Shown here: piece after piece, positions 12,629 through 30,014 of the stretch
Layout: every line of letters begins with the position of its first letter
Numbering within the stretch: position 1 is the first letter of the stretch
Source of the DNA: Mesorhizobium norvegicum
GTDB taxonomy: Bacteria; Pseudomonadota; Alphaproteobacteria; Rhizobiales; Rhizobiaceae
Direction: 5' to 3'
NCBI RefSeq assembly: GCF_004919685.1
Contig: NZ_SMYZ01000031.1
Span: forward strand, 1 to 64,000
DNA: 64,000 nt
Translations under genes and position numbers: made by a program
Notes under the pieces: model-generated
Databases searched by the model: none
What the model was told of the DNA's origin: nothing
The model's input: only the letters and a program-made list of their open reading frames with translations

Positions 12629-12669
12629 AATGCGCCGTCATGGTGCGGTGGACGAAAAAGTGGACGCCG

Positions 12670-13161: not shown

Positions 13162-13194
13162 GGCCGGAGAGATCATCTGTCGGGGCGGCACAAA

Positions 13195-13209
13195 AGAGAG
13201 AGTCTCTCT
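13195..13209. promoter_or_regulatory. Short palindrome upstream of doeC
   Basis: AGAGAGA (13195-13201) and TCTCTCT (13203-13209) are exact inverse complements around one G. They lie in the 130-base gap between the asnC-like regulator and doeC, where the spacing is wide enough for a separate promoter. A further CCTCTCTGTCT lies about 20 bases downstream. It could be a regulator half-site pair. Confidence 0.35.
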
Positions 13210-13291
13210 ACTTCGAGGCATCCAAACAGCCTCTCTGTCTGCATAGGGCAGATAGTCTTCCCGCATCAGTCCGAACCGGGAGGCCTCGACC

Positions 13292-14785: not shown

Positions 14786-14817
14786 TTCGTCCGGCCATTT
14801 CTCAAGGAGTCAAAAGA

Positions 14818-16197
14818 ATGCTCGACCAGTCCAACGAACTCGCCGCCTGGGATCGCGACCACTTCTTCCATCCCTCGACCCATATGGGCACGCACGCACG
14901 CGGCGAAAGCCCGACGCGCATCATGGCCGGCGGTGAAGGCGTCACCGTGTGGGACAACAATGGCAGAAAGAGCCTCGATGCCTTTGCCGGCCTCTACTGT
15001 GTCAATGTCGGTTATGGCCGCCAGAAGATCGCCGATGCGATCGCCGCCCAGGCGAAGAACCTCGCCTACTACCACGCCTATGTCGGCCACGGCACCGAGG
15101 CCTCGATCCGGCTTTCCAAGATGATCATCGACCGCGCGCCGCAGGGCATGTCGAGGGTCTATTTCGGCCTGTCGGGTTCAGATGCCAACGAAACCAACAT
15201 CAAGCTGATCTGGTACTACAACAATGTGCTCGGACGGCCGGAGAAGAAGAAGATCATCTCACGCTGGCGCGGCTATCACGGCTCGGGCGTGATGACCGGA
15301 TCGCTGACCGGGCTCGACCTGTTCCACAACGCCTTCGACCTGCCGCGCGCGCCGATCCTGCACACCGAGGCGCCCTATTACTTCCGCCGCGCCGACCGCT
15401 CGATGAGCGAGGAGCAGTTTTCACAGCATTGCGCCGACAAGCTCGAGGAGATGATCCTGGCCGAAGGCCCGGAAACGGTCGCTGCCTTCATCGGCGAGCC
15501 GATCCTCGGCACTGGCGGCATCGTGCCGCCGCCGGCCTTCTATTGGGAAAAGATACAGGCGGTGCTGAAGAAGTATGACGTGCTGCTGGTCGCCGACGAG
15601 GTGGTGACGGGCTTCGGCCGTCTGGGCACCATGTTCGGCTCCGACCATTACGGCATCAAGCCGGACCTGATCACCATCGCCAAGGGCCTGACCTCGGCCT
15701 ATGCGCCGCTGTCGGGCGTGATCGTCGCCGACAAGATGTGGCAGATGCTGGTTGAGGGCTCCGACAAGCTCGGTTCGTTCGGCCATGGCTGGACCTATTC
15801 GGCGCATCCGATCTGCGTTGCCGCCGGCGTCGCCAATCTCGAACTGATCGACGAGATGGACCTGGTGACAAACGCCCGCGAGACCGGCGCCTATTTCCGC
15901 GCCGAGCTGGCCAAGGCTGTCGGCGGTCACAGGAATGTCGGCGACGTGCGCGGCGACGGCATGCTGGCGGCGGTCGAATTCGTTGCCGACAGGGACGACC
16001 GGGTGTTCTTCGACGCTTCGCTCAAGATCGGGCCGCAGGTGGCGACAGTGCTTGCCGCAAGCGGCGTCATCGGCCGCGCCATGCCGCAGGGCGACATTCT
16101 GGGCTTCGCGCCGCCGCTCTGCCTGACCCGCGAGGAAGCCGACATCGTCGTTTCGAAGACGGCTGATGCGGTGAAGAGCGTGTTTGCCAATCTCTGA
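14818..16197 (+). CDS. doeD (atf): Diaminobutyrate/omega-aminotransferase of ectoine catabolism
   Basis: A 459-residue class III PLP aminotransferase. The PLP lysine is Lys289 (TIAKGLTSAY), the Asp that contacts the pyridine nitrogen is in LLVADEVVTGFGR (about 260), and the cofactor-phosphate area is GLSGSDANETN. In ectoine degradation it transaminates L-2,4-diaminobutyrate to aspartate beta-semialdehyde for DoeC. CAAGGAGTC precedes the ATG. It is the last gene certain to belong to the ectoine locus. Confidence 0.9.
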   Translation: MLDQSNELAAWDRDHFFHPSTHMGTHARGESPTRIMAGGEGVTVWDNNGRKSLDAFAGLYCVNVGYGRQKIADAIAAQAKNLAYYHAYVGHGTEASIRLSKMIIDRAPQGMSRVYFGLSGSDANETNIKLIWYYNNVLGRPEKKKIISRWRGYHGSGVMTGSLTGLDLFHNAFDLPRAPILHTEAPYYFRRADRSMSEEQFSQHCADKLEEMILAEGPETVAAFIGEPILGTGGIVPPPAFYWEKIQAVLKKYDVLLVADEVVTGFGRLGTMFGSDHYGIKPDLITIAKGLTSAYAPLSGVIVADKMWQMLVEGSDKLGSFGHGWTYSAHPICVAAGVANLELIDEMDLVTNARETGAYFRAELAKAVGGHRNVGDVRGDGMLAAVEFVADRDDRVFFDASLKIGPQVATVLAASGVIGRAMPQGDILGFAPPLCLTREEADIVVSKTADAVKSVFANL

Positions 16198-16206
16198 AAT
16201 CGACCC

Positions 16207-17310
16207 ATGAATGCCATGACCAGAACTCTCCCCGCCACCATGGCCGCCGTGCTGCTGACCGGGCACGGCGGACCGGAAAAACTCGTCTACCGCAGCGATG
16301 TGAAAGTGCCCGCGCCTGCTCCTGGTGAAGTGCTGATCAAGGTCAGCGCTTGCGGCATGAACAACACCGATGTCTGGGTGCGGCAAGGCGCCTATGGCAC
16401 GGAAGAGGACGCTGCCGCCGTGTCGACATGGCGGCGCCAGGGCAACACGCTTGTTTTCCCGCGTATCCAGGGCACCGACACGGTCGGCACCGTCGCAGCC
16501 GTCAGCGAAGGCGTTTCGCCTGACCGGATCGGCGAACGCGTGATGGTCGATTTCTCGATCTACAACCGCGACGACGATTCACTCGCCGACATCGATTATA
16601 TGGGCCACGGCCGCGACGGCGGCTACGCCGAATACCAGGCCGTGCCGGCCGAAAATGCCCATGTCGTCGATACCGACCTGACTGACGTCGAACTCGCCAC
16701 CTTCTGCTGCGCCTATCTCACCGGCGAACAGATGCTGGAACGGGCCGCGCTCAAGGCCGGTGAACGCGTGCTGGTCACCGGCGCCTCGGGCGGTGTCGGT
16801 TCCGGCATCGTGCAGCTGGCGCGGGCGCGTGGCGCCATTCCCTATGCCGTCGTCGGCAAGGGTAAGGAACAGGCGGTGCTCGACATCGGCGCCGAGGCTG
16901 TCATCACCCGTGGCGTTGCCGACCTGCCGCAAGCCGTGAACGAAGCGACCGGCGGCCAGCCGATCGACGTGGTGGCCGACCTTGTCGGAGGCGCCATCTT
17001 CAATGACCTGTTGCGCATCCTCAGGCCCGAAGGCCGCTACACCACCGCCGGCGCAATCGCCGGTCCGGTCGTGCAGCTCGATCTCAGGACCATGTATCTG
17101 AAGCAGTTGCAGCTGCATGGCTCGAGCCAGGGCACGCGCGCGGATTTTCGCCGCATCGTCGGATACATCGAGGCGAAGAAAATCCAGCCGCTGGTCGGCG
17201 GCGTTTACAAGCTCTCCGATTTCCACCATGCGCAGGCGGATTTCATCGCCAAGGATTTCGTCGGCAAGCTTGTGGTGGTGCCGGATGCCATGTGGGGTTC
17301 AGCTGGCTGA
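16207..17310 (+). CDS. Zinc-free MDR alcohol dehydrogenase / quinone-reductase-like protein
   Basis: A 367-residue medium-chain dehydrogenase/reductase with an N-terminal GroES-like domain, a Rossmann nucleotide site VTGASGGVGSGIVQLA (about 185-200) and C-terminal dimer region. It starts 9 bases after doeD, so it is probably cotranscribed, yet it is not a standard member of ectoine clusters. Residues around 60 form an insertion (about 20 residues with TWRRQGNTLVF) often seen in the 'alcohol dehydrogenase family protein' subgroup. Substrate unknown; it could remove a reactive aldehyde or ketone. Confidence 0.8.
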   Translation: MNAMTRTLPATMAAVLLTGHGGPEKLVYRSDVKVPAPAPGEVLIKVSACGMNNTDVWVRQGAYGTEEDAAAVSTWRRQGNTLVFPRIQGTDTVGTVAAVSEGVSPDRIGERVMVDFSIYNRDDDSLADIDYMGHGRDGGYAEYQAVPAENAHVVDTDLTDVELATFCCAYLTGEQMLERAALKAGERVLVTGASGGVGSGIVQLARARGAIPYAVVGKGKEQAVLDIGAEAVITRGVADLPQAVNEATGGQPIDVVADLVGGAIFNDLLRILRPEGRYTTAGAIAGPVVQLDLRTMYLKQLQLHGSSQGTRADFRRIVGYIEAKKIQPLVGGVYKLSDFHHAQADFIAKDFVGKLVVVPDAMWGSAG

Positions 17311-17326
17311 ATAACCCGACTATCCC

Positions 17327-18373
17327 TCAGCCGGGCTGGGCTGCTCGCAGCAGCATGCCGAACAGGTCGCGCGGCTCGTCGGGATCGGCCAGCATGTCGA
17401 GTTCCTGATAGAGGCCGGTCGACTTCAGCTGATCCCTGACATAGCGCAGCGCCGAGAAATCCTCGATGGCGAAGCCGACCGAATCGAACAGCGTGATCTG
17501 GGTGACATCGCGCCTGCCTTGCACAGCGCCTGACATCACCTGCCACAGCTCGGTCACCTTGTGATCCGGCGCAAGCTGCTGGATCTCGCCCTCTATGCGG
17601 GTCTGCGGGGGATATTCGACGAAGATGTCGGAGCGCAGCAGGATGTCGCGGTGCAGTTCGGTCTTGCCCGGACAGTCGCCACCGACCGCGTTGATGTGCA
17701 CGCCGGAGCCCACCATGTTGTCGGTGAGGATGGTGGCGTACTGCTTGTCGGCGGTGACGGTGGTGATGATATCAGCCCCTTCGACCGCCTCCTGCGCGGT
17801 GCCGCAGGCGACCATCTCGAAGCCAAGGCCTGCGAGATTGCGAATGCATTTTTCGGTGGCCGTGCGGTCGATGTCGTAAAGCCTCAGCCTATCGACGCCG
17901 AGCAGCGCCTTGAAGGCCACCGCCTGGAATTCGGCCTGGGCGCCGTTGCCGATCAGCGCCATGCAGCTGGAGCCGACTGGTGCCAGATGCTTTGCGGCCA
18001 AGGCCGACATCGCCGCCGTGCGCAGTGCGGTCAGTATGGTCATTTCGGACAGCAATACCGGGTAGCCGTTGTGGACATCGGCGAGCATGCCGAAAGCGGT
18101 CACCGTTTGGCGGCCTTCGCGCATGTTCTTGGGGTGGCCGTTGACATATTTGAAGCCGTAGACCTCGCCATCGCTGGTCGGCATCAGCTCGATGACGCCC
18201 TCGGCGCTGTGCGAGGCAACGCGCGGCGTCTTGTCGAACAGCTCCCAGCGGCGGAAATCGTCCTCGATGTAGCCGGCGAGTTCGACGAGGAACCGCTCGA
18301 CGCCGATCTTCAGCACCAGCTTCATCATATGGTCGACGCTGACGAAGGGCACGATGTTGAGATTGGGAATCAT
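17327..18373 (-). CDS. ocd: Ornithine cyclodeaminase
   Basis: A 348-residue protein matching true ornithine cyclodeaminases in length and in the N-terminal start (MIPNLNIVPFVSVDHM). The NAD-binding motif ALIGNGAQAEFQA lies near residue 137, and the segment GGDCPGKTEL holds the Asp used for deamination/cyclisation. The enzyme converts L-ornithine to L-proline and ammonia. It is the last gene of the leftward operon 24869-17327, which carries a branched-chain-type amino acid transporter and an FAD oxidase, so ornithine or a related diamino acid may be the imported or produced compound. The sequence TTTTTTTT lies just upstream of its start on the plus strand. Confidence 0.88.
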   Translation of the reverse strand: MIPNLNIVPFVSVDHMMKLVLKIGVERFLVELAGYIEDDFRRWELFDKTPRVASHSAEGVIELMPTSDGEVYGFKYVNGHPKNMREGRQTVTAFGMLADVHNGYPVLLSEMTILTALRTAAMSALAAKHLAPVGSSCMALIGNGAQAEFQAVAFKALLGVDRLRLYDIDRTATEKCIRNLAGLGFEMVACGTAQEAVEGADIITTVTADKQYATILTDNMVGSGVHINAVGGDCPGKTELHRDILLRSDIFVEYPPQTRIEGEIQQLAPDHKVTELWQVMSGAVQGRRDVTQITLFDSVGFAIEDFSALRYVRDQLKSTGLYQELDMLADPDEPRDLFGMLLRAAQPG

Positions 18374-18404
18374 TTTTTTTCTTATCCTTGCCGCATGCAG
18401 GCGG

Positions 18405-19034
18405 TCAGTCCTGACGATGCGCGTTGTGCGCCTTCATCATCGCCGCCAGCGCCGGATCGTTTTGCACAAGCGCCTTGATGGCTCCGCCTGTGTCGTAGAG
18501 GCGCTCATCCTGCCCCATCTTGAACTTGGCCTCGAGCCGATCGATCGCCAGGTCAAACCCTATGATACCAGGTATGCGCCGCTCCATGCCGCCAGGCCCC
18601 AGTTCGCGCATGCGCCAGCGGTCGTCTCGATCCTTTTCCAGCACGTCGACAAGCTGCAAGAGATGCCGGGCGGTGGCGTGATCGTCGAGCGGAACCGGCA
18701 GGCCATGGCAATGCACGACGGCAAAATTCCAGGTCGGCGCGCTGTCGCGCACCGGATTGCGCGGATACCAGGATGGCGAGATGTAGCCATGCGGGCCGTG
18801 AAAGATGACGACCGTCTGCCTGCCCTCGGCAATCAGCGCGCTGTGCGGATTGGCCCTGGCGAGATGCGAGACCAACGTTCCGTTCGGGCCACGCTCGCGA
18901 TCGAGCACGAAGGGAAGGTGCGAGACGACAAGCCCTTGCGGTCCCGCTGTCACCACCGTTGCAAAGGCCGCGGCTTCGATCAGGCCGAACACCTCGTCGC
19001 GCGACAGCGGCGCGAATTCAGGCTTGCTGTACAT
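18405..19034 (-). CDS. PaiB-like FMN-binding protein
   Basis: A 209-residue protein of the FMN-binding negative transcriptional regulator (PaiB) family, starting with the family hallmark MYSKPEFAPL. The split-barrel flavin fold is suggested by the SHLPFVLDRE, ANPHSAL and YISPSWYP segments. PaiB in Bacillus is linked to repression of protease and polyamine-related functions, but many homologues lie in amino-acid or amine operons and may be flavin enzymes rather than regulators. Here it is embedded between ornithine cyclodeaminase and livH in a single operon. Confidence 0.87.
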   Translation of the reverse strand: MYSKPEFAPLSRDEVFGLIEAAAFATVVTAGPQGLVVSHLPFVLDRERGPNGTLVSHLARANPHSALIAEGRQTVVIFHGPHGYISPSWYPRNPVRDSAPTWNFAVVHCHGLPVPLDDHATARHLLQLVDVLEKDRDDRWRMRELGPGGMERRIPGIIGFDLAIDRLEAKFKMGQDERLYDTGGAIKALVQNDPALAAMMKAHNAHRQD

Positions 19035-19038
19035 CAGG

Positions 19039-19920
19039 TCAGCTTCGCTGGGCGCGAACCGCCGGGATCAGGCCTTGCGGGCGAACCAGCAGCACCGCGA
19101 TGACACCCGACAGCACGATGGCGTCGCGATAGGGCGCGATCGCTCCCGGCAGCGTCGCCTGCAGCAGCACCTCGATGATGCCGAGCAGGAAGCCGCCGGC
19201 GACAGCACCGGGCAGGCTGCCGAGCCCACCGACGACGGCGGCGATGAACGCCTTCAGCACCGGCGTGAAGCCCATCAGCGGATCGACCGAGGCGCGCTGC
19301 GCCACCCACAGCATGGCCGCCAGCCCGGCCAGCAGGCCGGAGAGCAGGAAGGCGGTGGCGATGATGCGGCTGGCCGGAATGCCCATCAGGCGCACGACGT
19401 CGAAATCTTCCGCCGCGGCGCGCATCGCCGTGCCGGTCACCGAGCGGCGCAGGAAGATTTCGAGCGCAATCAGCGCCAGCGCCGAGACGACGATGGAGAT
19501 GCTGGGACCGACGCCGATGGTGAAATCGCCGAAGGAGAAGGAGCCGGTCATCCAGCCAGGCATGGCGACGGCCTGCGGCCGCGCCGAGATGCCGTTCTGG
19601 AAGACGACCTTCAGCAGGCTGGAGACGGCAAAGCTGGTCAGCAGCAGACTGGTGACGCTGGCGCCACGCATCGGCCTGAACGCGATGCGCTCCATGGCGA
19701 CAGCGGCGAGCGCGCCGCAGGAGACGGCGACAAGCACCGCCACCGGGAAGGGAAAGCCGAGCACCAGCGAGGCCAGCAGCGCATAGCCCGACAGCGTCAT
19801 CAGCTCGCCATGGGCGAAGTTGATGAGGCCGACGATGGAAAAGACGATCGCCAGCCCGAGCGCCAGCAGCGCATAGACGCCGCCGAGGCTAACCGCATTG
19901 ATGATCTGCTGCGCGATCAT
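19039..19920 (-). CDS. Branched-chain-type ABC transporter permease (LivH)
   Basis: A 293-residue inner-membrane permease of the LivH family with about eight hydrophobic segments, beginning MIAQQIINAVSLGGVYALLALG. It pairs with the permease half of the LivM-LivG fusion at 21847. The family takes up branched-chain amino acids, amides, urea and other small nitrogen compounds; the operon context (FAD oxidase, ornithine cyclodeaminase) suggests an amine or amino acid. Only 5 bases separate it from livF. Confidence 0.9.
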   Translation of the reverse strand: MIAQQIINAVSLGGVYALLALGLAIVFSIVGLINFAHGELMTLSGYALLASLVLGFPFPVAVLVAVSCGALAAVAMERIAFRPMRGASVTSLLLTSFAVSSLLKVVFQNGISARPQAVAMPGWMTGSFSFGDFTIGVGPSISIVVSALALIALEIFLRRSVTGTAMRAAAEDFDVVRLMGIPASRIIATAFLLSGLLAGLAAMLWVAQRASVDPLMGFTPVLKAFIAAVVGGLGSLPGAVAGGFLLGIIEVLLQATLPGAIAPYRDAIVLSGVIAVLLVRPQGLIPAVRAQRS

Positions 19921-19925
19921 GCTTC

Positions 19926-20630
19926 TTAAGCTCCCAAATAGGCTTGGCGGACGAGGTCCGAGGAGGCGAGTTCTTTTGCCGTGCCCGACAGCACCACCTC
20001 GCCATTGGCGAGCACGACGGCACGGTCGGCGATTTCGAGCGCCAGCGCCACATTCTGTTCGACCAGAAGGATGGTCAGGCCCTTGCGGCGCAGTTCGGCG
20101 ATCAGGTCGAAGACGGTGTCGATCAGTTGCGGGGCAAGGCCAAGCGAGGGCTCGTCGAGCAGGATCATGCGCGGCTTGCCCATCAGCGCGCGGGCGATGG
20201 CCAGCATCTGCTGTTCGCCGCCGGACAGATTGCCGCCCTTGACGCGATGGTAGCGGCGCAGGATCGGGAACAGCTCCAGCATCTCCTCCTCGCGCAGCCG
20301 CGCCTCGGCCGCCGGCTGATGCACCGCGCCGCCGAGACGCAGATTGTCGGCCACCGTCAGGCTGGCGAAGATGCGGCGGCCTTCGGGAACCAGCGCGACG
20401 CCCTTGCGGGCGATCGCCTCCGGCGTCAGGCCGGTGATGTCGACACCGTCGAAGATCACCTTGCCGGATGCAGCCGGCACCAGCCCGGCGACGGCGCCGA
20501 GCGTCGAGCTCTTGCCGGCGCCGTTGGCGCCGACCAGCGCGATGATCTCGCCGCTGTCGACGGTGAGGTCGACGCGGCGCACCGCCTCGACTTCGCCGTA
20601 CCGGATTTTCAGTGCTTCGACGCTCAGCAT
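19926..20630 (-). CDS. Branched-chain-type ABC transporter ATPase (LivF)
   Basis: A 234-residue ATPase of the LivF class: Walker A GANGAGKS (about 34-41), signature LSGGEQQM, Walker B RMILLDEPSLGLAP, H-loop LLVEQN, which is typical for LivF (Glu replaces the usual Thr). It pairs with the LivG domain of the fused protein at 21847. It lies between the binding-protein gene and livH, with gaps of 4 and 5 bases. Confidence 0.92.
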   Translation of the reverse strand: MLSVEALKIRYGEVEAVRRVDLTVDSGEIIALVGANGAGKSSTLGAVAGLVPAASGKVIFDGVDITGLTPEAIARKGVALVPEGRRIFASLTVADNLRLGGAVHQPAAEARLREEEMLELFPILRRYHRVKGGNLSGGEQQMLAIARALMGKPRMILLDEPSLGLAPQLIDTVFDLIAELRRKGLTILLVEQNVALALEIADRAVVLANGEVVLSGTAKELASSDLVRQAYLGA

Positions 20631-20634
20631 GACA

Positions 20635-21801
20635 TCACGGCGCGGGAACGTCGGCGGCGTCGGGGATCAGGGTCTGGACATGCTTGCCGTCGCCGCCCTC
20701 GTAGCGCATCAGCGCCACGGGCCGCAGCGGCATGCGATCGGTGCCGGCATAGGTGATCTTGCCGGTGATGCCTTCGAAATCCTTGAGGCCGGCGATGGCG
20801 TCGCGGATTGCCTTGGGATCGTCGGAGCCGGCCGTCTTGACCGCCTGGTCGAGGATCAGGCCGATCTCGTAGCCATTGACCTCATAGGTCGATTCCGGTG
20901 CGTGGCCGGCATATTTGGTGAAGGCGGCGTTGAAGGCCTCGAGCTTGCTGCCCGGCTCGGCATAGCCGGCCGCGGTGTAGACGACGCCGTCGACCAATTT
21001 GCCGAGCGCTTTGATGGTCGGCGTGCCGATGGCATCAGCGCCATAGACCGGGATGGTGACGCCGGCGCCGCGCAATTGCTGGATGAAGGCCGGGAAATCG
21101 GGCTCGTAGGCGGCCGTCATGATCAGGTCCGGCTTGTCGGCCAGGCCCTTGATGTTGGTGATCTCGGCGGAAAAGTCGGGCTGGCCCATGCTGAAGGTGC
21201 CGCGGCCGACAATGGCGCCACCCTTCTTCTCGAACACCTTGCCGAAATATTCCGGCAGATTGGCGGTGTAGGTGGAGTCCGGCGAGGTCAGCAGGAACAC
21301 CTTCTTCTTGCCCTCGGAGACGGCGAAGTCGGCGACCGCCGTCGCCTGCACATTGTCGGCCGGATAGGTGCCGAACATGACGTCGCCGACAGCGCCGGTC
21401 AGCACCGGGGCGGAGCCGCACAGGGTCAGGGTCGGAATGCCCAGCGGCTGGGTCAGCTGGCCGGCGGAAATCGATGGATCGGCATCGCACGGCGTGATCA
21501 TGATCTTGGCGCCGGCGTCGATCAGCTCCTGAGTGACAGTGGCGGTCTGCGCAGTGTCGGAACGCGTGTCCTTGATCAGCAGCTTGACGGTGTATTTGCC
21601 GCCGAGCCCGCCCTTGGCGTTAAGCTCGTCGAGCGACATGCGCAGGCCGGCAAGTGCTGGCTGGTCGTAAGGGGCAAGGCCGCCGGTCTGCGCGGTCGCG
21701 GCACCGATGATGATCTCCTCGGCGGATGCCGTCGAAATGGCGGCGATGCCGAACACGGCAGCGCACAGGGCGGCGCGATGGAGGCGATAGAGGCTTGGCA
21801 T
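20635..21801 (-). CDS. Branched-chain-type ABC transporter substrate-binding protein
   Basis: A 388-residue periplasmic leucine-binding-fold protein with a signal peptide to about residue 27 (MPSLYRLHRAALCAAVFGIA, cleavage after ASA). The mature protein opens with EIIIGAATAQTGGLAPYDQP, and its two lobes follow the type I periplasmic fold (DDTR-like segment KDTRSDTAQT, later GADAIGTP). It should define the substrate specificity of the 17-25 kb operon; the sequence alone does not show which amino acid or amide it binds. Confidence 0.9.
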   Translation of the reverse strand: MPSLYRLHRAALCAAVFGIAAISTASAEEIIIGAATAQTGGLAPYDQPALAGLRMSLDELNAKGGLGGKYTVKLLIKDTRSDTAQTATVTQELIDAGAKIMITPCDADPSISAGQLTQPLGIPTLTLCGSAPVLTGAVGDVMFGTYPADNVQATAVADFAVSEGKKKVFLLTSPDSTYTANLPEYFGKVFEKKGGAIVGRGTFSMGQPDFSAEITNIKGLADKPDLIMTAAYEPDFPAFIQQLRGAGVTIPVYGADAIGTPTIKALGKLVDGVVYTAAGYAEPGSKLEAFNAAFTKYAGHAPESTYEVNGYEIGLILDQAVKTAGSDDPKAIRDAIAGLKDFEGITGKITYAGTDRMPLRPVALMRYEGGDGKHVQTLIPDAADVPAP

Positions 21802-21846
21802 GTCGGTTCTCCTTCTGGATTTCTTATGGTTGGCTGTCGTTACGGG

Positions 21847-23703
21847 TCATGCGATCTGGTTTTCAGCTGTTGCGGTCTTGGCGCGCGCCGTGCGGCTGCC
21901 GAGATAGGCGGCGATCACGGCAGGGTTCTTCTGGACGTCGCCGGGAGTGCCGTCGGCTATGACGCGGCCATGATCGATGACGACGATGCGCTCGCAGAGG
22001 TTCATCACAAGCCGCATGTCGTGCTCGATCAGGACGACGCCGATGCGGCGCTCGGTGCGGACCGTCGACAGGATGGAGACCAGTTCGGCGGTCTCGACAG
22101 CGTTCATGCCGGCGGCCGGCTCGTCGAGCAGCAGGAAGCGCGGCTTCAACGCCAGGGCGCGTGCCACTTCGAGCCGACGGCGCTGGCCATAGGCGAGCCT
22201 GGCGGCCGGCTGATCGGCGAATTTCTCCAGCCCCATGCGCGCGAGCTCGCCCATGGCCGCCGCCTCGGCATGGCCAAGATCAGGTTCCACCTGGCGCGCG
22301 GCGACGACGACATTTTCCAGCACCGTCATATGCGGGAAGACGCGGATGTTCTGGAAGGTGCGGGCAACGCCGGAGCGCGCGAAGCGGAAGGCCGAGGCCT
22401 GCCGCACGGCACCACCGATAGACACCGTGCCGGCACTTGGCTGGACGTCGCCGGCCAGCATGTTGAGCAGCGTCGTCTTGCCGGCGCCATTGGGACCGAT
22501 AATGCCGGTGATGCTGTCGGTCTGGAAATTCAGGCTGACGTCGTCGACGGCGACGACGCCGGCATAGCGGCGCGACAGATGGTCGGCGGTGAGCCGATCG
22601 CTCTCGACATGCTGCGGAGGTGCCGCCGAAGCCGTCACGGCCTGACGTCCGGGCCGGCGCAAAAGGTTGAGCTCGCGCTCGCCGAACAGGCCGGTCGGTC
22701 GTCGCCAGATGACCAGGATCATGGCAATGGCCAGCACGCCCTGGGTCAGACCGAACAGGACAGGCAGATGCAGGCCGAGCACCTCACCGCCGCCTTCGAA
22801 ACGGCGCACCACTTCGATCAAAACGATGGTAACGATGACGCCGGCGAAGGCGCCGAGCGATGAGGTCATGCCACCGACGATCAGCATGGCGAGCATGGTG
22901 AAGCCGAGGTCGAAATAGAAATCGCGTGGCGAGAACGCACCAAGGAATTGCGCCATCAAGGCGCCGGCGGCCATGGCGGCAACGACACCCGCCACCCAGG
23001 CGGCCAGACGCGCCGTGCGCTGGTCGACGCCGACGGCCGCCGCACCACGCTCGTCATTGGCGGCGGCGCGGATGGCAAGGCCGAAGGAGGTTTCGCGAAA
23101 CAGCCTCGCCGCCACCAGCGCCACCGAAGCGATGGCTGCGGCCGTCCACAGCCCGACCTCGCGCGGCACGCCGTAAAAGGGCTGGCTGCCGCGGGTGATC
23201 TCACGCCCGGCGACCAGCAGCGTGTAGACGATAATCAGCATGGCCAGCGTGGCGATCGAGGCGCTCGATCCGGAAAGCCTGAGCAGCGGCGTGCCGGTCA
23301 ACAGGCCGATGACAACTGCCAGAACCAGTACAACGGCCAGCGCCGCGAAGAAGGAGAGTTGGTGGCCGGCGAGGAACTGCGGCAGGTCGCGCAGTGCGGT
23401 TCGCTGAAGTGCTGTCGGCATGGTGAGAATGCCGGTGGCGTAGGCGCCGAGGCCGACAAAGGCCGCCTGGCCGAACGAGACGATGCCGCTGTTACCGGAG
23501 AAGATCTGCAGGCCAAGCACCGCCGTCAGCATGATCGCGGCATAGGTGACGACTCGTTGCATGGCGGCGCCGCCAAAGATGAAGGCGGCAAGCGCCACCA
23601 GCAGCAGCACCGCCACCATGCACAAGGCATCGGCGGTGGCGTTGCGAAACGCGGCCGGCATGAAGCTACGTGATTTGCCCTCGCTCATCGTCACCGACAC
23701 CAT
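21847..23703 (-). CDS. Fused LivM permease - LivG ATPase
   Basis: A 618-residue natural fusion. Residues about 1-330 are a LivM-type membrane domain with roughly nine hydrophobic segments; residues about 365-618 are a LivG ATPase with Walker A GPNGAGKTTLLNML, signature LAYGQRRRLEVARAL and Walker B FLLLDEPAAGMN. Fused LivM-LivG proteins are known in this transporter class but are the minority. The first in-frame ATG at 23703 overlaps the stop of the FAD-oxidase gene (TGATG); an alternative ATG lies five codons later. Confidence 0.88.
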   Translation of the reverse strand: MVSVTMSEGKSRSFMPAAFRNATADALCMVAVLLLVALAAFIFGGAAMQRVVTYAAIMLTAVLGLQIFSGNSGIVSFGQAAFVGLGAYATGILTMPTALQRTALRDLPQFLAGHQLSFFAALAVVLVLAVVIGLLTGTPLLRLSGSSASIATLAMLIIVYTLLVAGREITRGSQPFYGVPREVGLWTAAAIASVALVAARLFRETSFGLAIRAAANDERGAAAVGVDQRTARLAAWVAGVVAAMAAGALMAQFLGAFSPRDFYFDLGFTMLAMLIVGGMTSSLGAFAGVIVTIVLIEVVRRFEGGGEVLGLHLPVLFGLTQGVLAIAMILVIWRRPTGLFGERELNLLRRPGRQAVTASAAPPQHVESDRLTADHLSRRYAGVVAVDDVSLNFQTDSITGIIGPNGAGKTTLLNMLAGDVQPSAGTVSIGGAVRQASAFRFARSGVARTFQNIRVFPHMTVLENVVVAARQVEPDLGHAEAAAMGELARMGLEKFADQPAARLAYGQRRRLEVARALALKPRFLLLDEPAAGMNAVETAELVSILSTVRTERRIGVVLIEHDMRLVMNLCERIVVIDHGRVIADGTPGDVQKNPAVIAAYLGSRTARAKTATAENQIA

Positions 23704-24869
23704 CACGCGGCCTTGAAGCGGCTGGGCGAAAACGGCGCCAGGATCGGCTGGGCGCCCTCGGTGACCAGCCTGGCGACAGCCTCGCCGACGGCCGGCCCGG
23801 TCTTGAAACCGTGGCCGGAGGATCCGGCCGAAACGACCAGCCCTTCGACAGCAGGCATGGCGCCGATGACAGGCAGATCGTCGGGGCTCATGTCGTAGAG
23901 CCCGGCATAGCCGGGCCGGATGCCAAGCTCGGCCATGGCCGGCACACGGGTGGCGAAGGTCTCCAGGATCTCGACCGATTCTGATTCCTCGACACCTTCC
24001 ACGTAGTCATCCGGATTTTCGACAAAGCGCGGCCGGCCCGCATGTTCGTGGCGCAGGCCGGTGCCGCCGCCGGCCCAGGTGCCAGCCAGGATGACGCCGT
24101 CATTGTCGGGCCGCGCATAGTTGCAGGAAATGTCGTCGCACCAGGCGAAAGGCATCACCTGCCTTGCCTTGCCGGCGGCGTCGAGCACGGCCATCGGATG
24201 GCGCTCGACATGCAGCGGCAGATCGAGGCCGACCGTCGCCAGCAGGCGGCGCGTCCACGGCCCGGCGGCCAGGACGACAGTATCGGCTTCCAGCATCGTT
24301 CCATCGGTTAAGGTGACGCCGGTGATGCGGTCGCCCTGCCGCTGAAGGCTCTCGACCAACGTGTTCTGCATGATCTTCGCACCGCTGGCGCGAGCGGCAC
24401 GGGCGATGGCATTGGTGGCGCCGAAGGCATCGGCATAGCCATATTCCGGCTCCCACAGCGCCAGCGCGACATTGTCCAGCGCAAAGCCGGGCGCGGCGTC
24501 GGCAAAGGCTTGTGGCGACAATGTCTCGATGCGCGCGCCCTCGCCGCGGATGCGTTCGGCTGCCGCCGTCCAGCTCGCCTTGTTGTCGTTGCCGCAGACC
24601 CACATCATGCCGACCTCGGTGACGAAGGAGCCTTCGCCCGCGATCTCCGGCAGCGACACCAGGATCTCGCGGCCGCGGATGGAAAGCTGCGACAGTTCCG
24701 GCATCAGGTAGAAGGCGTGCAGCAGCGCCGACGATTTGCCCGACGGGCCGCCTGCCGGATGGGTCTGCTCGACCAGCGCAACCTTCACACCGGCCTTGGC
24801 CAGATGATAGGCGGTGCTCGATCCGACAATACCCGCACCGACGACGATGACGTCGCTTCCGTTTCGCAT
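23703..24869 (-). CDS. FAD-dependent amine/amino-acid oxidoreductase (DAO family)
   Basis: A 388-residue flavoprotein of the DAO/sarcosine-oxidase/PuuB family. The FAD-binding fingerprint VIVVGAGIVGSSTAYHLAKAG is at residues 7-27 with the acidic ribose ligand in ALVEQ; the C-terminal GSSGHGFKTGPAVGEAVA motif is typical of monomeric sarcosine oxidase-like and PuuB-like enzymes. It should oxidise a secondary amine or amino acid to an imine/aldehyde. It is the first gene of the leftward operon and diverges from the RpiR gene. Confidence 0.87.
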   Translation of the reverse strand: MRNGSDVIVVGAGIVGSSTAYHLAKAGVKVALVEQTHPAGGPSGKSSALLHAFYLMPELSQLSIRGREILVSLPEIAGEGSFVTEVGMMWVCGNDNKASWTAAAERIRGEGARIETLSPQAFADAAPGFALDNVALALWEPEYGYADAFGATNAIARAARASGAKIMQNTLVESLQRQGDRITGVTLTDGTMLEADTVVLAAGPWTRRLLATVGLDLPLHVERHPMAVLDAAGKARQVMPFAWCDDISCNYARPDNDGVILAGTWAGGGTGLRHEHAGRPRFVENPDDYVEGVEESESVEILETFATRVPAMAELGIRPGYAGLYDMSPDDLPVIGAMPAVEGLVVSAGSSGHGFKTGPAVGEAVARLVTEGAQPILAPFSPSRFKAA

Positions 24870-24930
24870 GGCTGTTCCCCACAGTCTCTTGGCTGCTTTC
24901 CGACAAGGTAGGGCCAGCGATCGCGCAATG

Positions 24931-24975
24931 TCAACATCTCTTCATTGTTGACCGAGATTTAAATCTCTGTAATAA
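24931..24975 (+). promoter_or_regulatory. Promoter of the RpiR operon with palindromic operators
   Basis: TTGACC (24948-24953) and TAATAA (24970-24975) are spaced 16 bases, a plausible sigma-70 promoter for the gene starting at 25015. The spacer is filled by a perfect 14-bp palindrome GAGATTTAAATCTC (24954-24967). Immediately upstream TCAACA (24931-24936) and TGTTGA (24946-24951) form a second inverted repeat. A bound RpiR dimer would block polymerase, so autoregulation and control of the divergent operon are likely. Confidence 0.6.
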
Positions 24976-25014
24976 ACTCGACAAAACAAGAGAACACGGA
25001 TTTCGGGGAGGCCC

Positions 25015-25953
25015 ATGGCGATACGCGATGTTCTGATGCGCGGGGATCTCACGCTGACGCCGTCGGAGGAGAAGATCGTCCGGCTGCTGTTGACGGACTA
25101 TCCGACCTCCGGCCTTGGCACCGCTTCGTCGCTGGCGCGGCGCGCCGGCGTCAGCGATCCAACCGTGGTGCGGCTGGTGATGAAGCTCGGCTATGAAGGG
25201 TTTCCGGATTTCCAGGCAAAGCTTCTGGCCGAGGTCGAGGCAAGGCTGCATTCGCCGCTGCTGATGATGGAGGCCAAGCGGCAGATCGGCTCCAACGACA
25301 GCGCCGTGCTGGCCTATCTCGATAGCGTCACCACGGCCCTGCAGAAAGCCACCGCCGCGACACCCGTCCAGACATACGAGCGGGCGGCCCGTCTGCTGAT
25401 GGAGGCCAAGGGCGAGGTCGTGCTGGTTGGCGGCCGGTTCAGCCGCCACATCGCCGGCATGCTTGCCGGATATCTCGTGCAGTTTCGCCCCAAGGTTCGC
25501 GATCTCGGTGTGCTCTCGCCACAGATTTTCGACACACTGGCCGACCTCGACCGGCGCGACGTGCTCGTCGTCTTCGACTACCGCCGCTACCAGCTCGATG
25601 TGATGGCCTATGCAAGACAGGCGGCGGCGCTCGATGTGCGCATTGTCCTGTTCACCGACCAGTGGCTGTCGCCGATCGCCGATCTCGCCGAAGTCACGAT
25701 CGTCAGCCCGCTCGAAGTGGCCTCGCCCTACGATACGCTGGCGCCGGCGATCGCCCAGATGGAAGCCCTCACCGCTCATATTGTTTCGACGCTGGACGAC
25801 GACGCTCGTGCTCGCATCGAGCGGCTTGAGAAGGTGCGGCACGCCAATGCCGTAACGCTCGACAGCGACCCGCAAGAGAACGGCGCGGGCCATACACCCG
25901 GACCACGTAAGACGCCGGGACCCAAATCAGCAAAGCAGGACGACAAAGCATGA
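25015..25953 (+). CDS. RpiR-family transcriptional regulator (HTH + SIS)
   Basis: A 312-residue regulator with an N-terminal HTH_6 domain (residues 10-80; LTPSEEKIVRLLL, GVSDPTVVRLVMKLG) and a sugar-isomerase-like SIS domain (about 125-260). RpiR proteins usually sense phosphosugars, but a rhizobial subgroup lies beside amino-acid and amine catabolic genes. The tail after residue 280 is an unusual Pro/Gly/Lys-rich extension (TPGPRKTPGPKSAK). GGGGAGG precedes the ATG. Its own stop overlaps the next start (ATGA), so it is the first gene of a five-gene operon. Confidence 0.9.
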   Translation: MAIRDVLMRGDLTLTPSEEKIVRLLLTDYPTSGLGTASSLARRAGVSDPTVVRLVMKLGYEGFPDFQAKLLAEVEARLHSPLLMMEAKRQIGSNDSAVLAYLDSVTTALQKATAATPVQTYERAARLLMEAKGEVVLVGGRFSRHIAGMLAGYLVQFRPKVRDLGVLSPQIFDTLADLDRRDVLVVFDYRRYQLDVMAYARQAAALDVRIVLFTDQWLSPIADLAEVTIVSPLEVASPYDTLAPAIAQMEALTAHIVSTLDDDARARIERLEKVRHANAVTLDSDPQENGAGHTPGPRKTPGPKSAKQDDKA

Positions 25954-26597
25954 CCCAGGCCCTACCCAGACGAAATGAAGCCTTCCGTGCCGGCGAAACG
26001 GCGCTGCTGCTCGTCGACATGCAGCGCATCTGGCTGGAGCCGGGCGCCGATCCGTCGCATCCGGAGCGTGGCCCGGATCACTATTTCTACCGGCAGACAT
26101 CGTCGCAGACGATCCCCAACCAGGAGCGTCTGCTGGCCGCCGCCCGGGCCAACGGCGTCGAGGTTCTGCACACCATCATCCAGAGCCTGACCGAAGACGG
26201 CCGCGACCGCTCGCTCGACCACAAGCTGACACCGATCCATGTTGCGCCCAGCCTCGCCGAGGGTCTGCCGGTGGCGTCGCTGGCGCCGGTCGGCGACGAG
26301 ATCATGCTGCCGAAGACGTCGTCGGGCATCTTCAACTCGACCAATGTCGACTATCTCCTGAAGAACCTCGGCGTTCGCTATCTCGTCGTGGTCGGCGTGC
26401 TGACCGATCAATGCGTCGACATGACAGTGCGCGACGGGGCCGACCGCGGCTATCTCGTCACCTGCGTAGCGGATGCCTGCGCCACCATCACGCAGGAGCG
26501 CCACGACATCGCGCTCAAGGCCTTCGGCGGCTACTGCTGGGTCACCGACACCGACACGGTCGTCACCCGCTTCAACGCTTTGGGACAAACGGCATGA
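25950..26597 (+). CDS. Isochorismatase-fold cysteine amidohydrolase
   Basis: A 215-residue cysteine hydrolase with the catalytic triad visible: Asp23 (LLVDMQ), Lys122 (LPKTSSG) and Cys155 (TDQCVDMT). The TSSGIFNST stretch is the usual substrate-lid region. Family members hydrolyse amides such as nicotinamide, biuret, ureidoacrylate or N-carbamoylsarcosine. In this operon it may release ammonia or CO2 from an amide intermediate. It overlaps both neighbours by 4 bases. Confidence 0.87.
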   Translation: MTQALPRRNEAFRAGETALLLVDMQRIWLEPGADPSHPERGPDHYFYRQTSSQTIPNQERLLAAARANGVEVLHTIIQSLTEDGRDRSLDHKLTPIHVAPSLAEGLPVASLAPVGDEIMLPKTSSGIFNSTNVDYLLKNLGVRYLVVVGVLTDQCVDMTVRDGADRGYLVTCVADACATITQERHDIALKAFGGYCWVTDTDTVVTRFNALGQTA

Positions 26598-27916
26598 CAT
26601 CGACTGTCGAGCCTCTGGTTGCCGTCGTCACCACGGATCTCTCCGCCGTTACACGGGGCCGCTTCGTTGCCGAAAGCAAGTTGCAAAAGACCGCCACGAC
26701 CGGCGTCGGCTGGCTGCAAGCCAATCTGTCGCTGACGCCGTTCAATTCGATTGTCGATCCCAACCCCTGGGGCTCGTCGGGCGACCTGCGGCTGATCCCC
26801 GATCTCAAGGCGCGCTTTCGCACGACACGCACCGGATCGGCGACGCCGTTCGACATGGTCGCCGGCGACATCGTCGAGCTCGACGGCAGCCCGTGGCTCG
26901 GCTGCACCCGGACGATGCTCAAAGACGCGCTGGCCGAGCTGAAAGCCGCAACTGGCCTGTCGGTCATCGCCGCCTTCGAACATGAATTCCATGTCGCCGA
27001 CGGCGGCTTCGCGCCGGCGCATTCGATGTCTTTCGCCGCACTGCGCCGCGCCGACCCCTTCGCGCCCAACCTGATGGCGGCGCTGGAGGAAGCGGGCGTC
27101 GCGCCCGAAGTGGTCATCGCCGAATTCGGCGATGAGCAGTTCGAGGTGACGCATGAGCCGGCGGACGCGCTGACGGCAGCCGACCGCGCCGTCGCCATCC
27201 GCGAAATCACGCGCGAATTGGCGCGCAATGCCGGCTGGCGTGCGAGCTTCGCGCCCAAGACAGCGCCGAATGCCGTCGGCAACGGCGTCCACATCCATTT
27301 CAGCTTCGTCGACGAGGCCGGCAAGCCGGTGACTTACGATCCGGCGCAACCCGGCGGACTTTCCGCCAAAGCCGGCGCCTTCTGCGCCGGTGTGCTGCGT
27401 CATCTGCCTGGTATCATCGCCATGACGGCGTCAAGCGTGTCGTCCTACTACCGCCTGAAGCCGCACAGCTGGAGTTCGTCCTACACCTGGCTCGCCGACC
27501 GTGATCGCGAGGCATCCTTGCGCATCTGCCCGACGGTGACGATCGGCGGACGCGATCCGGCGCGGCAATACAACATCGAATACCGGGCCGCCGATGCCAC
27601 CGGCAATCCTTATCTGTCGCTGGCGGCGATCATCCGCGCCGGGCTGGAAGGGCTAAAGGCGGGCCTGCCCTCGCCGCCGCTGGTCACCGGCGACCCGACA
27701 CTGATGAGCGAGGCGGAGCGGGCAAAGCTTGGTCTCGTGCGCCTGCCCGAAACCCTGCCGGCGGCGCTGGACGCGCTTGTGGCCGACAGCACCGTGACGG
27801 GATGGTTCGCGCCTGTCTTCATCGAAACCTTCGTCGGCCTCAAGCAACACGAGGCAGAGCGCCTTGCCGGTCTCGATCCGGCTTCCATCTGCGATCTTTA
27901 CCGGACGCTCTATTGA
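26594..27916 (+). CDS. Glutamine-synthetase-like gamma-glutamylamide ligase
   Basis: A 440-residue protein of the glutamine synthetase superfamily, with the N-terminal beta-grasp part (NPWGSSGDLRLIPDL) and the catalytic barrel (EHEFHV near residue 125 for metal binding, GNGVHIHFSF near 228, RPxx-like IEYRAADATGNPY near 325). It is far from housekeeping GlnA and closer in layout to GlnA-III/PuuA-type enzymes that join glutamate to amines with ATP. Its neighbours, a DAO-type oxidase and hydrolases, fit a gamma-glutamylated-amine route. The start ATG at 26594 overlaps the previous stop. Confidence 0.82.
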   Translation: MTSTVEPLVAVVTTDLSAVTRGRFVAESKLQKTATTGVGWLQANLSLTPFNSIVDPNPWGSSGDLRLIPDLKARFRTTRTGSATPFDMVAGDIVELDGSPWLGCTRTMLKDALAELKAATGLSVIAAFEHEFHVADGGFAPAHSMSFAALRRADPFAPNLMAALEEAGVAPEVVIAEFGDEQFEVTHEPADALTAADRAVAIREITRELARNAGWRASFAPKTAPNAVGNGVHIHFSFVDEAGKPVTYDPAQPGGLSAKAGAFCAGVLRHLPGIIAMTASSVSSYYRLKPHSWSSSYTWLADRDREASLRICPTVTIGGRDPARQYNIEYRAADATGNPYLSLAAIIRAGLEGLKAGLPSPPLVTGDPTLMSEAERAKLGLVRLPETLPAALDALVADSTVTGWFAPVFIETFVGLKQHEAERLAGLDPASICDLYRTLY

Positions 27917-28701
27917 TGACTGCACAGACTGAAAAAGACTTGCTCCCTCGAAAAGATTGGCCCGAGGCCGTCGAGGTCCTCAACGAGAACGGCCATTCCG
28001 ATATCGTGCTGTTGTGCGAACATGCGTCCAACCACATGCCGGCCGAGTATCGGCAGCTCGGCCTTGATGCCAGCCATCTGCAGCGCCACATCGCCTGGGA
28101 TATCGGCGCCGCCGAGGTGACCCGCCTGCTGTCCGCGAAGCTCGACGCACCGGCCTTCCTCAGCGGCTATTCCCGGCTGCTGATCGACCTCAATCGGCCG
28201 CTTCAAACGCAAGGCAGCATTCCGGTGCTGTCGGAAGACACTGACATTCCCGGCAATGTCGGCATCGATGCGACGGAGCGAACCCGGCGTGCCGAGATCA
28301 TCTTTTCGCCGTTTCATGACCGGGTGGCCGCGTATCTCGACCGCCGGGCGCGAGCAGGCCGGCAGACGCGGATCGTGACGATCCATTCCTTCACGCCGGT
28401 CTTCCTCGGTGTCAGCAGGCCCTGGCATGCCGGCGTGCTGCATAGCCAAGCCAGCGATCTCGCCGAAGCGATCCTTTCGGGCCTGCGCGCCGACGCGGCG
28501 CTCAATGTCGCGGCCAACGTGCCCTATGTGATCAGCCGCGATGCCGACTACGCTGTGCCCATCCATGGCGACGATCGCGGTATCCCCGCCGTCCTCGTCG
28601 AGATCCGGCAGGATTTGTTGTCGACACGGTCCGGCATCGAGGAATGGGCGAACCGCCTGGCGGCGGCACTGCCGGCACTCAAGACGGAAACAGTGCCGTG
28701 A
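27916..28701 (+). CDS. N-formylglutamate amidohydrolase family protein
   Basis: A 261-residue zinc hydrolase of the N-formylglutamate amidohydrolase (HutG-type) family. Family marks: LLCEHASNHMPAEY near residue 32, SRLLIDLNRP near 93, and HSFTPVFLG near 155, which supply the metal and substrate ligands. Known members release formate from N-formylglutamate, but there are no histidine-degradation genes here, so it may act on a different N-acyl or gamma-glutamyl glutamate derivative. Start ATG at 27916 shares TGATG with the previous stop. Confidence 0.83.
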   Translation: MTAQTEKDLLPRKDWPEAVEVLNENGHSDIVLLCEHASNHMPAEYRQLGLDASHLQRHIAWDIGAAEVTRLLSAKLDAPAFLSGYSRLLIDLNRPLQTQGSIPVLSEDTDIPGNVGIDATERTRRAEIIFSPFHDRVAAYLDRRARAGRQTRIVTIHSFTPVFLGVSRPWHAGVLHSQASDLAEAILSGLRADAALNVAANVPYVISRDADYAVPIHGDDRGIPAVLVEIRQDLLSTRSGIEEWANRLAAALPALKTETVP

Positions 28702-30014
28702 GCAATCTCAGCCTGCGCGAACGCGACGCCGCGACCATCGCCCAGATCGGCAAGCTGCGTTTCTCGCCGCTCAGCGTCATCGGCGGCCGGGGCAACCGGC
28801 TGATCGAGGAAGGCGGCCGCTCCTTGCTCGACCTGTCGGGGTCGGCCGGTCCGGCGGTGCTCGGCTACGGCCATCCGGCTGTCGTCGAGGCGGTCGAGAT
28901 ATCGATCCGCAACATGGCTGGCGCCAGCCTGCTGCTCTACCCGAACGAGCCGGCTGTATCGCTGGCGGAGCGGCTGCTGGCAATCACGCCTGGAGAAGGC
29001 GAACGGCGCGTCTGGTTCGGCCATTCCGGGTCCGACGCCAATGACTGCGCGGTGCGCGTGCTGCAGGCGGCCACCGGCCGTTCGCGCTTCATCTCGTTCA
29101 TCGGTTCCTACCACGGCAACCTCTCGGGCTCGATGGGCATCAGCGGCCACACCGCCATGACCCACACACTGCCGCGGCCGGGTGTGCTTCTGCTGCCCTA
29201 CCCCGATCCGTACCGGCCGAACTTCAGCGCCGAGGATGTGCTGGCCCTGCTCGACTACCAGTTTGAGACCACCTGCCCGCCGCATCAGGTCGCGGCGGTG
29301 TTCATCGAACCGTTGATGTCTGACGGCGGACTGATCGTGCCGCCGCCGGGTTTCCTCAAGGCGCTGCAGGAGCGTTGCCGCAAGCACGGCATCAAGATTG
29401 TCGTCGACGAGGTCAAGGTCGGGCTCGCCCGCAGCGGCATGATGCACTGCTTCCAGCACGAAGGATTGACGCCTGACCTCGTTGTCTTCGGCAAAGGCAT
29501 CGGTGGCGGCCTGCCGCTGTCAGCCGTCATAGGCCCGAAGGAAATCATGGACCATGCGCCGGCCTTCGCGCTGCAGACGACCGCAGGCAATCCGGTGGCG
29601 ACATCGGCCGGCAACGCGGTGCTGAAGACGATCGAGACGGAAGGCCTGGTCGAGCGCTCGGCGCGGATCGGCACGCTGTTTTCCGATGCGCTGCGAGCCC
29701 TTGCCGTCAGGCATGAGATCATCGGTGACGTGCGCGGGCGCGGCCTTGCCATCGGCGTCGACCTGGTCAAGGATCGTGCGACACGTGAGCCCGTTGCGGC
29801 GACAACCACTGCCAAGATCATCTATCGCGGCTACGAACTGGGCGCGGCCTTCACCTATGTCGGGCTGAAAGCAAATGTGCTGGAGTTCATGCCGCCGCTA
29901 ACGCTGACGCAGGACGAGGTGACCGAGGGCGTGGCAATCGTCGACCAGGCGATCGCCGACGTGAATGCCGGCAAGGTCTCGGATGCGGACGTCGCCTCCT
30001 TCATGATGTGGTGA
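28698..30014 (+). CDS. Class III PLP aminotransferase
   Basis: A 438-residue aminotransferase of the class III (omega-amino acid, GABA-type) fold. Key regions: cofactor phosphate area GHSGSDAND (about 110), IVVDEVKVGLARSG with the PLP-contacting Asp (about 235), the PLP lysine in VFGKGIGGGLPLS (about 271) and GNPVATSAGNAV. It probably removes the terminal amino group from the product of the operon's hydrolases. The start is GTG at 28698 overlapping the previous stop (GTGA); the ATG at 28644 lies in the previous gene and gives a nonsensical N-terminus. Confidence 0.86.
   Translation: MSNLSLRERDAATIAQIGKLRFSPLSVIGGRGNRLIEEGGRSLLDLSGSAGPAVLGYGHPAVVEAVEISIRNMAGASLLLYPNEPAVSLAERLLAITPGEGERRVWFGHSGSDANDCAVRVLQAATGRSRFISFIGSYHGNLSGSMGISGHTAMTHTLPRPGVLLLPYPDPYRPNFSAEDVLALLDYQFETTCPPHQVAAVFIEPLMSDGGLIVPPPGFLKALQERCRKHGIKIVVDEVKVGLARSGMMHCFQHEGLTPDLVVFGKGIGGGLPLSAVIGPKEIMDHAPAFALQTTAGNPVATSAGNAVLKTIETEGLVERSARIGTLFSDALRALAVRHEIIGDVRGRGLAIGVDLVKDRATREPVAATTTAKIIYRGYELGAAFTYVGLKANVLEFMPPLTLTQDEVTEGVAIVDQAIADVNAGKVSDADVASFMMW

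Follow-up and report, generated by a model that had tools for sequence, protein, structure and literature searches.

The window analysed here is a stretch of 64,000 nucleotides from Mesorhizobium norvegicum (contig NZ_SMYZ01000031.1), and between its positions 17327 and 30014 lie two divergent operons that may serve the breakdown of alpha-amino acid amides or alpha-aminolactams by way of a glutamate tag, a reading that we favour tentatively and that falls a little short of being probable. In its fuller and somewhat more doubtful form, the proposal is a pathway not described before: D and L forms of alpha-amino amides or aminolactams would undergo deracemisation, N-gamma-glutamylation, deamidation or ring opening, and removal of the glutamyl group. 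Aminocaprolactam racemase and the ligases of the PA5508 clade would then have their natural place in this cluster, and an enzyme with the N-formylglutamate amidohydrolase (FGase) fold would serve as a gamma-glutamyl hydrolase.

To our knowledge, no physiological role has been established for amino acid amide or aminocaprolactam racemases or for PA5508, and we found none in the open-access literature. Nor did that literature yield a description of the gene combination of the cluster, or of the gene neighbourhood or natural role of such a racemase. The available parts of papers on nylon monomers and on FVG name no such cluster, and a paper on fitness modules of Pseudomonas putida gave no match. 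The linkage described below puts a racemase of biocatalysis and a ligase of the structurally solved PA5508 type into one testable pathway and, if the proposal is true, gives both a natural job. It also leads us to propose that one subgroup of the FGase-like enzymes, a very common family, hydrolyses gamma-glutamyl bonds.

Gene content and recurrence of the cluster

The two operons share an intergenic region of 145 bases. On the plus strand, an RpiR regulator is followed by an isochorismatase-fold hydrolase (ICH), a protein resembling glutamine synthetase (GS), an FGase-like hydrolase, and a class III pyridoxal phosphate (PLP) enzyme, and at all four junctions, the start of a gene overlaps the preceding stop by 1-4 bases. 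The minus operon comprises, in this order, a DAO-family oxidase, a fused LivM-LivG, a solute-binding protein (SBP), LivF, LivH, a PaiB-like protein, and ornithine cyclodeaminase. All of these genes are open reading frames with the places and families listed in Table 1, and the two divergent operons around one RpiR regulator that an earlier note on this DNA had described are real. Because the operator-like site between the operons is single in the genome and the core gene set recurs elsewhere, we consider the locus to be more than a chance arrangement.

The core of RpiR, ICH, GS-like ligase, and FGase recurs in many Alphaproteobacteria and in four genomes outside this class. We examined 124 loci, 12 of which, all fetched via the racemase discussed below, have no ligase; of the other 112, 89 contain RpiR, 95 ICH, and 98 FGase, and the three genes occur together in 80. 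The co-occurrence suspected in the earlier note is thus borne out, and the possibility that these genes do not occur together elsewhere is contradicted. The duplicates L039-L041 and L201, as well as L131 and L134, which have no usable ligase, are not part of these counts. The thresholds for gene presence were our own choice, the gene caller was a home-made heuristic, and the loci are not independent, as many come from Mesorhizobium and some genomes are duplicated. Within the order, the ligase has a match at E<=1e-60 in 61 of 297 genomes. When the loci that extend 7 kb or more to either side were divided into ligase identity bins of 88-100, 65-88, 51-65, and 35-51%, FGase was present in 24/25, 12/12, 10/11, and 32/40 loci, ICH in 25/25, 12/12, 11/11, and 28/40, and RpiR in 22/25, 11/12, 10/11, and 29/40, respectively.

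The class III enzyme, a racemase homologue by the criteria given in the next section, has matches at E<=1e-100 at 18 places in 16 of the 297 genomes. By coordinates, 13 of these 16 genomes (13 of the 18 places) have the ligase no more than 11 kb away on the contig of the racemase; eight of them are outside the genus of the window, a genus in which five genomes have the racemase. In a 14th genome (L192), the racemase adjoins RpiR, ICH, and FGase. As for the remaining two, one racemase is on a contig of 7.6 kb, and the other is 2.4 kb from a contig end, with no module genes among the 8 kb that follow in the opposite direction.

Other partners were also found. The racemase is present in 42 of the 112 ligase loci, a gene of the acetamidase/formamidase (FmdA) family in 6, each of which also has LivH, and an M20 deacylase in 10, one locus having two of these partners; the latter two families were scanned on one representative each (L111 and L052, respectively), and the other members were counted by similarity to their clusters. 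The solved protein nearest to the FmdA-family partner is the acetamidase 2ii1. By family, all three partners act on amides or amide-bearing amino compounds, and it is chiefly on this that we base an amide or lactam as the substrate. The review PMC7431475 mentions the use of a formamidase-family L-amidase on amino acid amides.

Racemase homologues of 47-69% identity occur away from the ligase module in L183, L186, L188, L189, L194, and L195, and ligase homologues of 41-44% identity that have no RpiR, ICH, or FGase (L104, L105, L108, L115, L118, L122, and L124) adjoin a small, cysteine-rich-looking protein. Five further loci (L113, L123, L127, L128, and L130) present a variant with RpiR, a second GS-like gene, and an aldehyde dehydrogenase, most of them with FGase, in which genes resembling a TRAP transporter and an iron-dependent alcohol dehydrogenase were recognised by eye; this variant may be a gamma-glutamyl amino-alcohol route.

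Family assignments of the plus-operon enzymes

The class III enzyme had been taken for an aminotransferase in the earlier note, an assignment that did not hold. Its highest-scoring solved structure is 6gio, labelled "amino acid amide racemase" (794 bits), and 2zuk, labelled "alpha-amino-epsilon-caprolactam racemase", reaches 502 bits. Between the two stand 5m46, 5m49, 5m4b, and 5m4d (509-513 bits), which we take to be alpha-amino-epsilon-caprolactam (ACL) racemases despite their PDB label "Aminotransferase class-III". Amino acid racemases and epimerases follow below 2zuk at 272-274 bits, and 4-aminobutyrate aminotransferases at no more than 249 bits. Over its full length, the protein is 80% identical to 6gio and 57% to 5m49, in contrast to 35% to PuuE of Escherichia coli. 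On these identities and scores, we rejected an aminotransferase, and by homology, the enzyme is an amino acid amide or ACL racemase, which points to alpha-amino amides or lactams as the substrate. Among the best 25 of 69 curated models, none scored above its cut-off and most were aminotransferases, so that racemases of this type may be misannotated as aminotransferases.

In three loci of Brucella, from the former Ochrobactrum group (L088-L090), a racemase 92, 93, and 97% identical to 6gio comes directly after RpiR, ICH, GS, and FGase. Racemases of this type act on ACL and on amino acid amides, and that of Ochrobactrum also racemises amino acid esters, as stated in PMC7431475. These enzymes (6gio, 2zuk, and 5m49) are known from biocatalysis.

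The GS-like ligase is 45% identical over its full length to PA5508 (PauA7, 4hpp) of Pseudomonas aeruginosa, and only 24-25% to E. coli GlnA and PuuA. Among solved structures, 4hpp scores 383 bits and the next one 117 bits, while the nearest curated model, gamma-glutamylputrescine synthetase, scores 255 bits, below its cut-off of 650. We aligned 89 ligases, namely locus members of 400-480 residues and more than 37% identity, and assigned to the GS residues the metal, ATP, glutamate, and ammonium-site roles that we take them to have. Ten metal, glutamate, and ATP positions are invariant in 89/89. At the glutamate-site position N264, there is a valine in 76/89, as in PA5508. The ammonium-site position E327 is a tryptophan in all 89, and the position of D50 is always alanine, threonine, or serine; the window protein has tryptophan and alanine, respectively, at these two positions. 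On this evidence, the ligase belongs to the PA5508 clade and the ammonium site is lost. An ammonia-using, ordinary glutamine synthetase was rejected on these replacements of D50 and E327, and ordinary GS activity alone is unlikely for a protein with such residues. The gamma-glutamylation-like logic proposed in the earlier note is therefore supported, at the level of sequence, by the assignment as a PA5508-type gamma-glutamyl ligase. The genome has ten GS-family places in total.

The two hydrolases were compared through predicted models and through alignments of 28 of 57 ICH and 31 of 55 FGase sequences, with the window proteins included. In ICH, D23, K122, and C155, presumably the catalytic triad, are invariant in 28/28 sequences. 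Its model (predicted local distance difference test, pLDDT, 92) has as nearest folds, at Z 25-27, uncharacterised cysteine hydrolases together with maleamate, N-carbamoylsarcosine, biuret, triuret, and ureidoacrylate hydrolases, so that enzymes acting on primary amides and ureides are among the best matches. For the FGase-like protein (model pLDDT 94), the comparison finds its own family first (2odf, Z 35.9; 2q7s, Z 23.0) and, beyond it, the poly-gamma-glutamate hydrolases 3a9l, 21dc, and 5onj (Z 13.4-13.7). A gamma-glutamyl hydrolase function is thus plausible as judged from the model. The family name, on the other hand, says little, given that this is a broad family with a homologue at E<=1e-25 in 259 of the 297 genomes of the order. 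Family scans found no hut-type families among the cluster genes in the window, so the FGase-like gene does not have the hut-operon setting of a HutG-type enzyme here.

Proposed route and its alternatives

The substrate, all catalytic steps, and their order are what we infer from these families. The LivFGHM-type transporter would import an amino amide or aminolactam, whose D and L forms the racemase would interconvert, and the GS-like ligase would link the free alpha-amino group to glutamate through the gamma-carboxyl of the latter. Hydrolysis of the carboxamide, or opening of the lactam, would then fall to ICH (in other loci, to an FmdA-family or M20 enzyme), and the FGase-like hydrolase would split off the gamma-glutamyl group, so that glutamate and the amino acid are set free. 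The extra ornithine cyclodeaminase of Mesorhizobium suggests ornithine as one product, for instance from ornithine lactam or ornithinamide, which would be converted to proline. Both operons would be controlled by RpiR from one site. The logic of this pathway is that of known gamma-glutamylation pathways.

Several observations weigh against the proposal. The need for a glutamate tag on an amide is not obvious, since simple amidases can cleave such amides. Linkage is also incomplete, as 70 of the 112 ligase loci have no racemase and 55 have none of the three partner types, while among the 40 loci in the 35-51% bin, 8 are without FGase, 12 without ICH, and 11 without RpiR. Two racemase paralogues within the order (G060 and G097, 47% identity) are unlinked to a ligase, and among 385 genomes searched outside the order, the window's own genome included, the racemase was found in 9 genomes at 10 places, of which 4 are ligase-linked, 2 accompanied by FGase only, and 4 by neither. 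In the fold comparisons, true isochorismatases come close behind the nearest folds of ICH (Z ~24), and a cell-wall amidase (Z 13.0) is tied with the poly-gamma-glutamate hydrolases in the FGase-like ranking, with the carboxypeptidase Csd4 at 12.6. The DAO and PaiB proteins have no assigned pathway step. Finally, the four loci outside the class in which the ligase is 59-73% identical to PA5508 (L156-L159) hold RpiR, ICH, GS, and FGase together in 4/4 cases, and all four are without a racemase, which suggests that amides may be only one substrate class.

These last loci lead to an alternative that we consider unlikely but deserving of attention, namely that the core serves to degrade primary amines of a bulky or aromatic kind via gamma-glutamylation, an activity ascribed to PA5508 in vitro, and that the racemase is a side module needed only where the amine contains an amide. 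The PA5508-like loci differ from the window in that no racemase, DAO, or Liv transporter was seen in them, and in two of the four, a gene resembling an amino acid permease was recognised by eye. The families of PA5506, PA5507, and PA5509 are assumed here. In the literature, PA5506-PA5509 are listed as a group over-expressed together (PMC6246594), PA5507 and PA5509 are named together (PMC4409342), and PA5508 is said to prefer bulky amines (catecholamines) over polyamines, which are also said not to induce it (PMC6478659). PMC11335346 links PA5508 to aromatic amines, yet gives spermidine and putrescine as examples; it also places PA5508 on a branch adjacent to the glutamyl-organic amine synthetases (NpaA1, AtdA1, IpuA, and others), which are of the GS fold like the window ligase and are said to have lost the formation of glutamine from ammonia. 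Membership of the ligase in the PA5508 clade, the core without racemase in the PA5508-like loci, and weak homologues (27-41%) of the window's aldehyde dehydrogenase in the flanks of some loci, such as L042, L047, L086, and L111-L113, would all agree with an amine substrate. Against it, there is no constant oxidase, with DAO in only 23 of the 112 ligase loci, and the racemase, FmdA-family, and M20 partners are all amide-related by family.

Two other possibilities appear improbable, each to a similar degree. The natural substrate could be an alpha-aminolactone or thiolactone, for instance homoserine lactone left by acyl-homoserine-lactone acylases, on which the racemase and the hydrolases would act. 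The activity of the Ochrobactrum racemase on amino acid esters (PMC7431475) and the exchange of the alpha-hydrogen of homocysteine thiolactone by an aminocaprolactam racemase, reported in PMC11391342, are in line with this idea, but homoserine needs neither amidase-type hydrolases nor ornithine cyclodeaminase. Alternatively, the hydrolases might handle N-formyl compounds or formamide, with FGase splitting N-formyl amino acids to give formate and the partner of the FmdA family acting as formamidase; this has the family names FGase and FmdA_AmdA in its favour, but the breadth of the former family leaves its name with little meaning, and the racemase would be left unexplained.

A variant of the Puu polyamine pathway of E. 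coli is very improbable and is largely contradicted by the sequence comparisons. Both systems share the broad logic of gamma-glutamyl ligase, FAD oxidase, and hydrolase, and the nearest curated ligase model comes from that pathway. However, the ligase is only 25% identical to PuuA, the cluster has no orthologue of PuuB, PuuD, PuuE, or PuuR, and the enzyme that would correspond to PuuE is the racemase homologue. No match to PuuD (at E<=1e-3) or PuuR was found among the 19 genes compared, which agrees with the view of the earlier note that other hydrolases stand in the place of PuuD. The same note had regarded the system as distinct from Puu while recalling its gene order; the distinction stands, and the comparison with Puu is not supported. 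Its statement that PuuC and PuuD are absent is correct for the cluster, but an aldehyde dehydrogenase lies close by in a separate, convergent operon, and this is the only match to PuuC among the 19 genes (36%). Homarine and imidazoleacetate routes were also considered and rejected, and the homarine literature searched gave nothing useful.

Operator-like site, accessory genes, and adjoining operon

Table 1. Features of the two divergent operons, with their positions in the window
Feature	Position	Strand	Family or occurrence
RpiR/MurR-family regulator (HTH_6 + SIS)	25015..25953	+	PF01418, PF01380; 89/112 ligase loci
Isochorismatase-fold amidase (ICH), proposed carboxamide/lactam hydrolysis	25950..26597	+	PF00857
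GS-like ligase, PA5508 clade, proposed gamma-glutamylation of alpha-amino group	26594..27916	+	PF00120
FGase-like hydrolase, proposed gamma-glutamyl amide hydrolase	27916..28701	+	PF05013, 134 bits, cut-off 28.9
Amino acid amide/aminocaprolactam racemase homologue (class III PLP)	28698..30014	+	80% to 6gio
DAO-family FAD oxidase (accessory)	23703..24869	-	PF01266; 23/112 ligase loci
Fused LivM permease - LivG ATPase	21847..23706	-	PF02653, PF00005, PF12399
Branched-chain/amide-type solute-binding protein	20635..21801	-	PF13458; SBP in 64/112 ligase loci
LivF ATPase	19926..20630	-	PF00005
LivH permease	19039..19920	-	PF02653; 58/112 ligase loci
PaiB-like FMN-binding protein (accessory)	18405..19034	-	PF04299; 21/112 ligase loci
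Ornithine cyclodeaminase (accessory)	17327..18373	-	NF005762; 26/112 ligase loci
Operator-like inverted repeat between operons	24929..24952	+	TGTCAANATNTNTTCANNNTTGAC

The inverted repeat TGTCAANATNTNTTCANNNTTGAC at 24929-24952 has no second match anywhere in the 8.27 Mb genome when up to 2 mismatches are allowed. A -35-like TTGACC that lies upstream of rpiR in the window overlaps with it. It occurs exactly, once per locus, in 33 of 201 loci, three being duplicates, and these include L053 and L054, whose ligase is just 52% identical. The exact sequence is absent from the other 168 loci, among them several Mesorhizobium with RpiR (e.g., L067, L070, and L071) and nearly all distant loci. We infer that RpiR binds at this site and controls both operons. 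A second perfect palindrome, GAGATTTAAATCTC, lies beside it at 24954-24967 and is less conserved in the alignment.

DAO and PaiB are found mostly in Mesorhizobium loci, and a DAO of 55% identity adjoins the racemase and ligase in L187. The oxidase had been called DAO/PuuB-like; it does belong to the DAO family, but its nearest solved proteins are sarcosine oxidases, and its match to E. coli PuuB spans only 46 residues. The ornithine cyclodeaminase is well supported as such (NF005762, 582 bits with a cut-off of 350; 1u7h, 390 bits), and the loci that contain it include L091, with the cyclodeaminase downstream of FGase on the same strand, as well as L086 and, with a ligase of just 41% identity, L114. 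Nevertheless, by coordinates, it lies near the ligase in only 3 of its 58 carrier genomes in the order (the genome of the window, G209, and G248). The proline route is thus likely a Mesorhizobium-type extension, and the general funnelling to ornithine and proline that had been suggested for the system would apply at most to a subset. The genome of the window carries three copies of ornithine cyclodeaminase. Ornithine lactam has been reported in mung bean sprouts (PMC10649298), but arginine yields the same lactam during silylation for gas chromatography-mass spectrometry (PMC9105707), and for this reason, we did not use ornithine lactam as a legume metabolite in evidence.

An adjoining operon at 12640-17310 converges on the cyclodeaminase and contains Lrp, an aldehyde dehydrogenase, a class III aminotransferase, and a zinc-type dehydrogenase (ADH). 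The aldehyde dehydrogenase (13292-14785), the PuuC match mentioned above, resembles succinate-semialdehyde dehydrogenase and lies ~2.5 kb beyond the cyclodeaminase; the aminotransferase scores 857 bits with NF005684, above its cut-off of 687. In seven near relatives (L059-L065), ADH is the neighbour of the cyclodeaminase, but the complete set of four genes is seen within the flanks of L064 only. Since within the flanks it was seen only in these near relatives, we set this operon aside. As for transport, two loci that were scanned have other binding proteins instead, of the peptide type in L052 and YdcS-like in L107.

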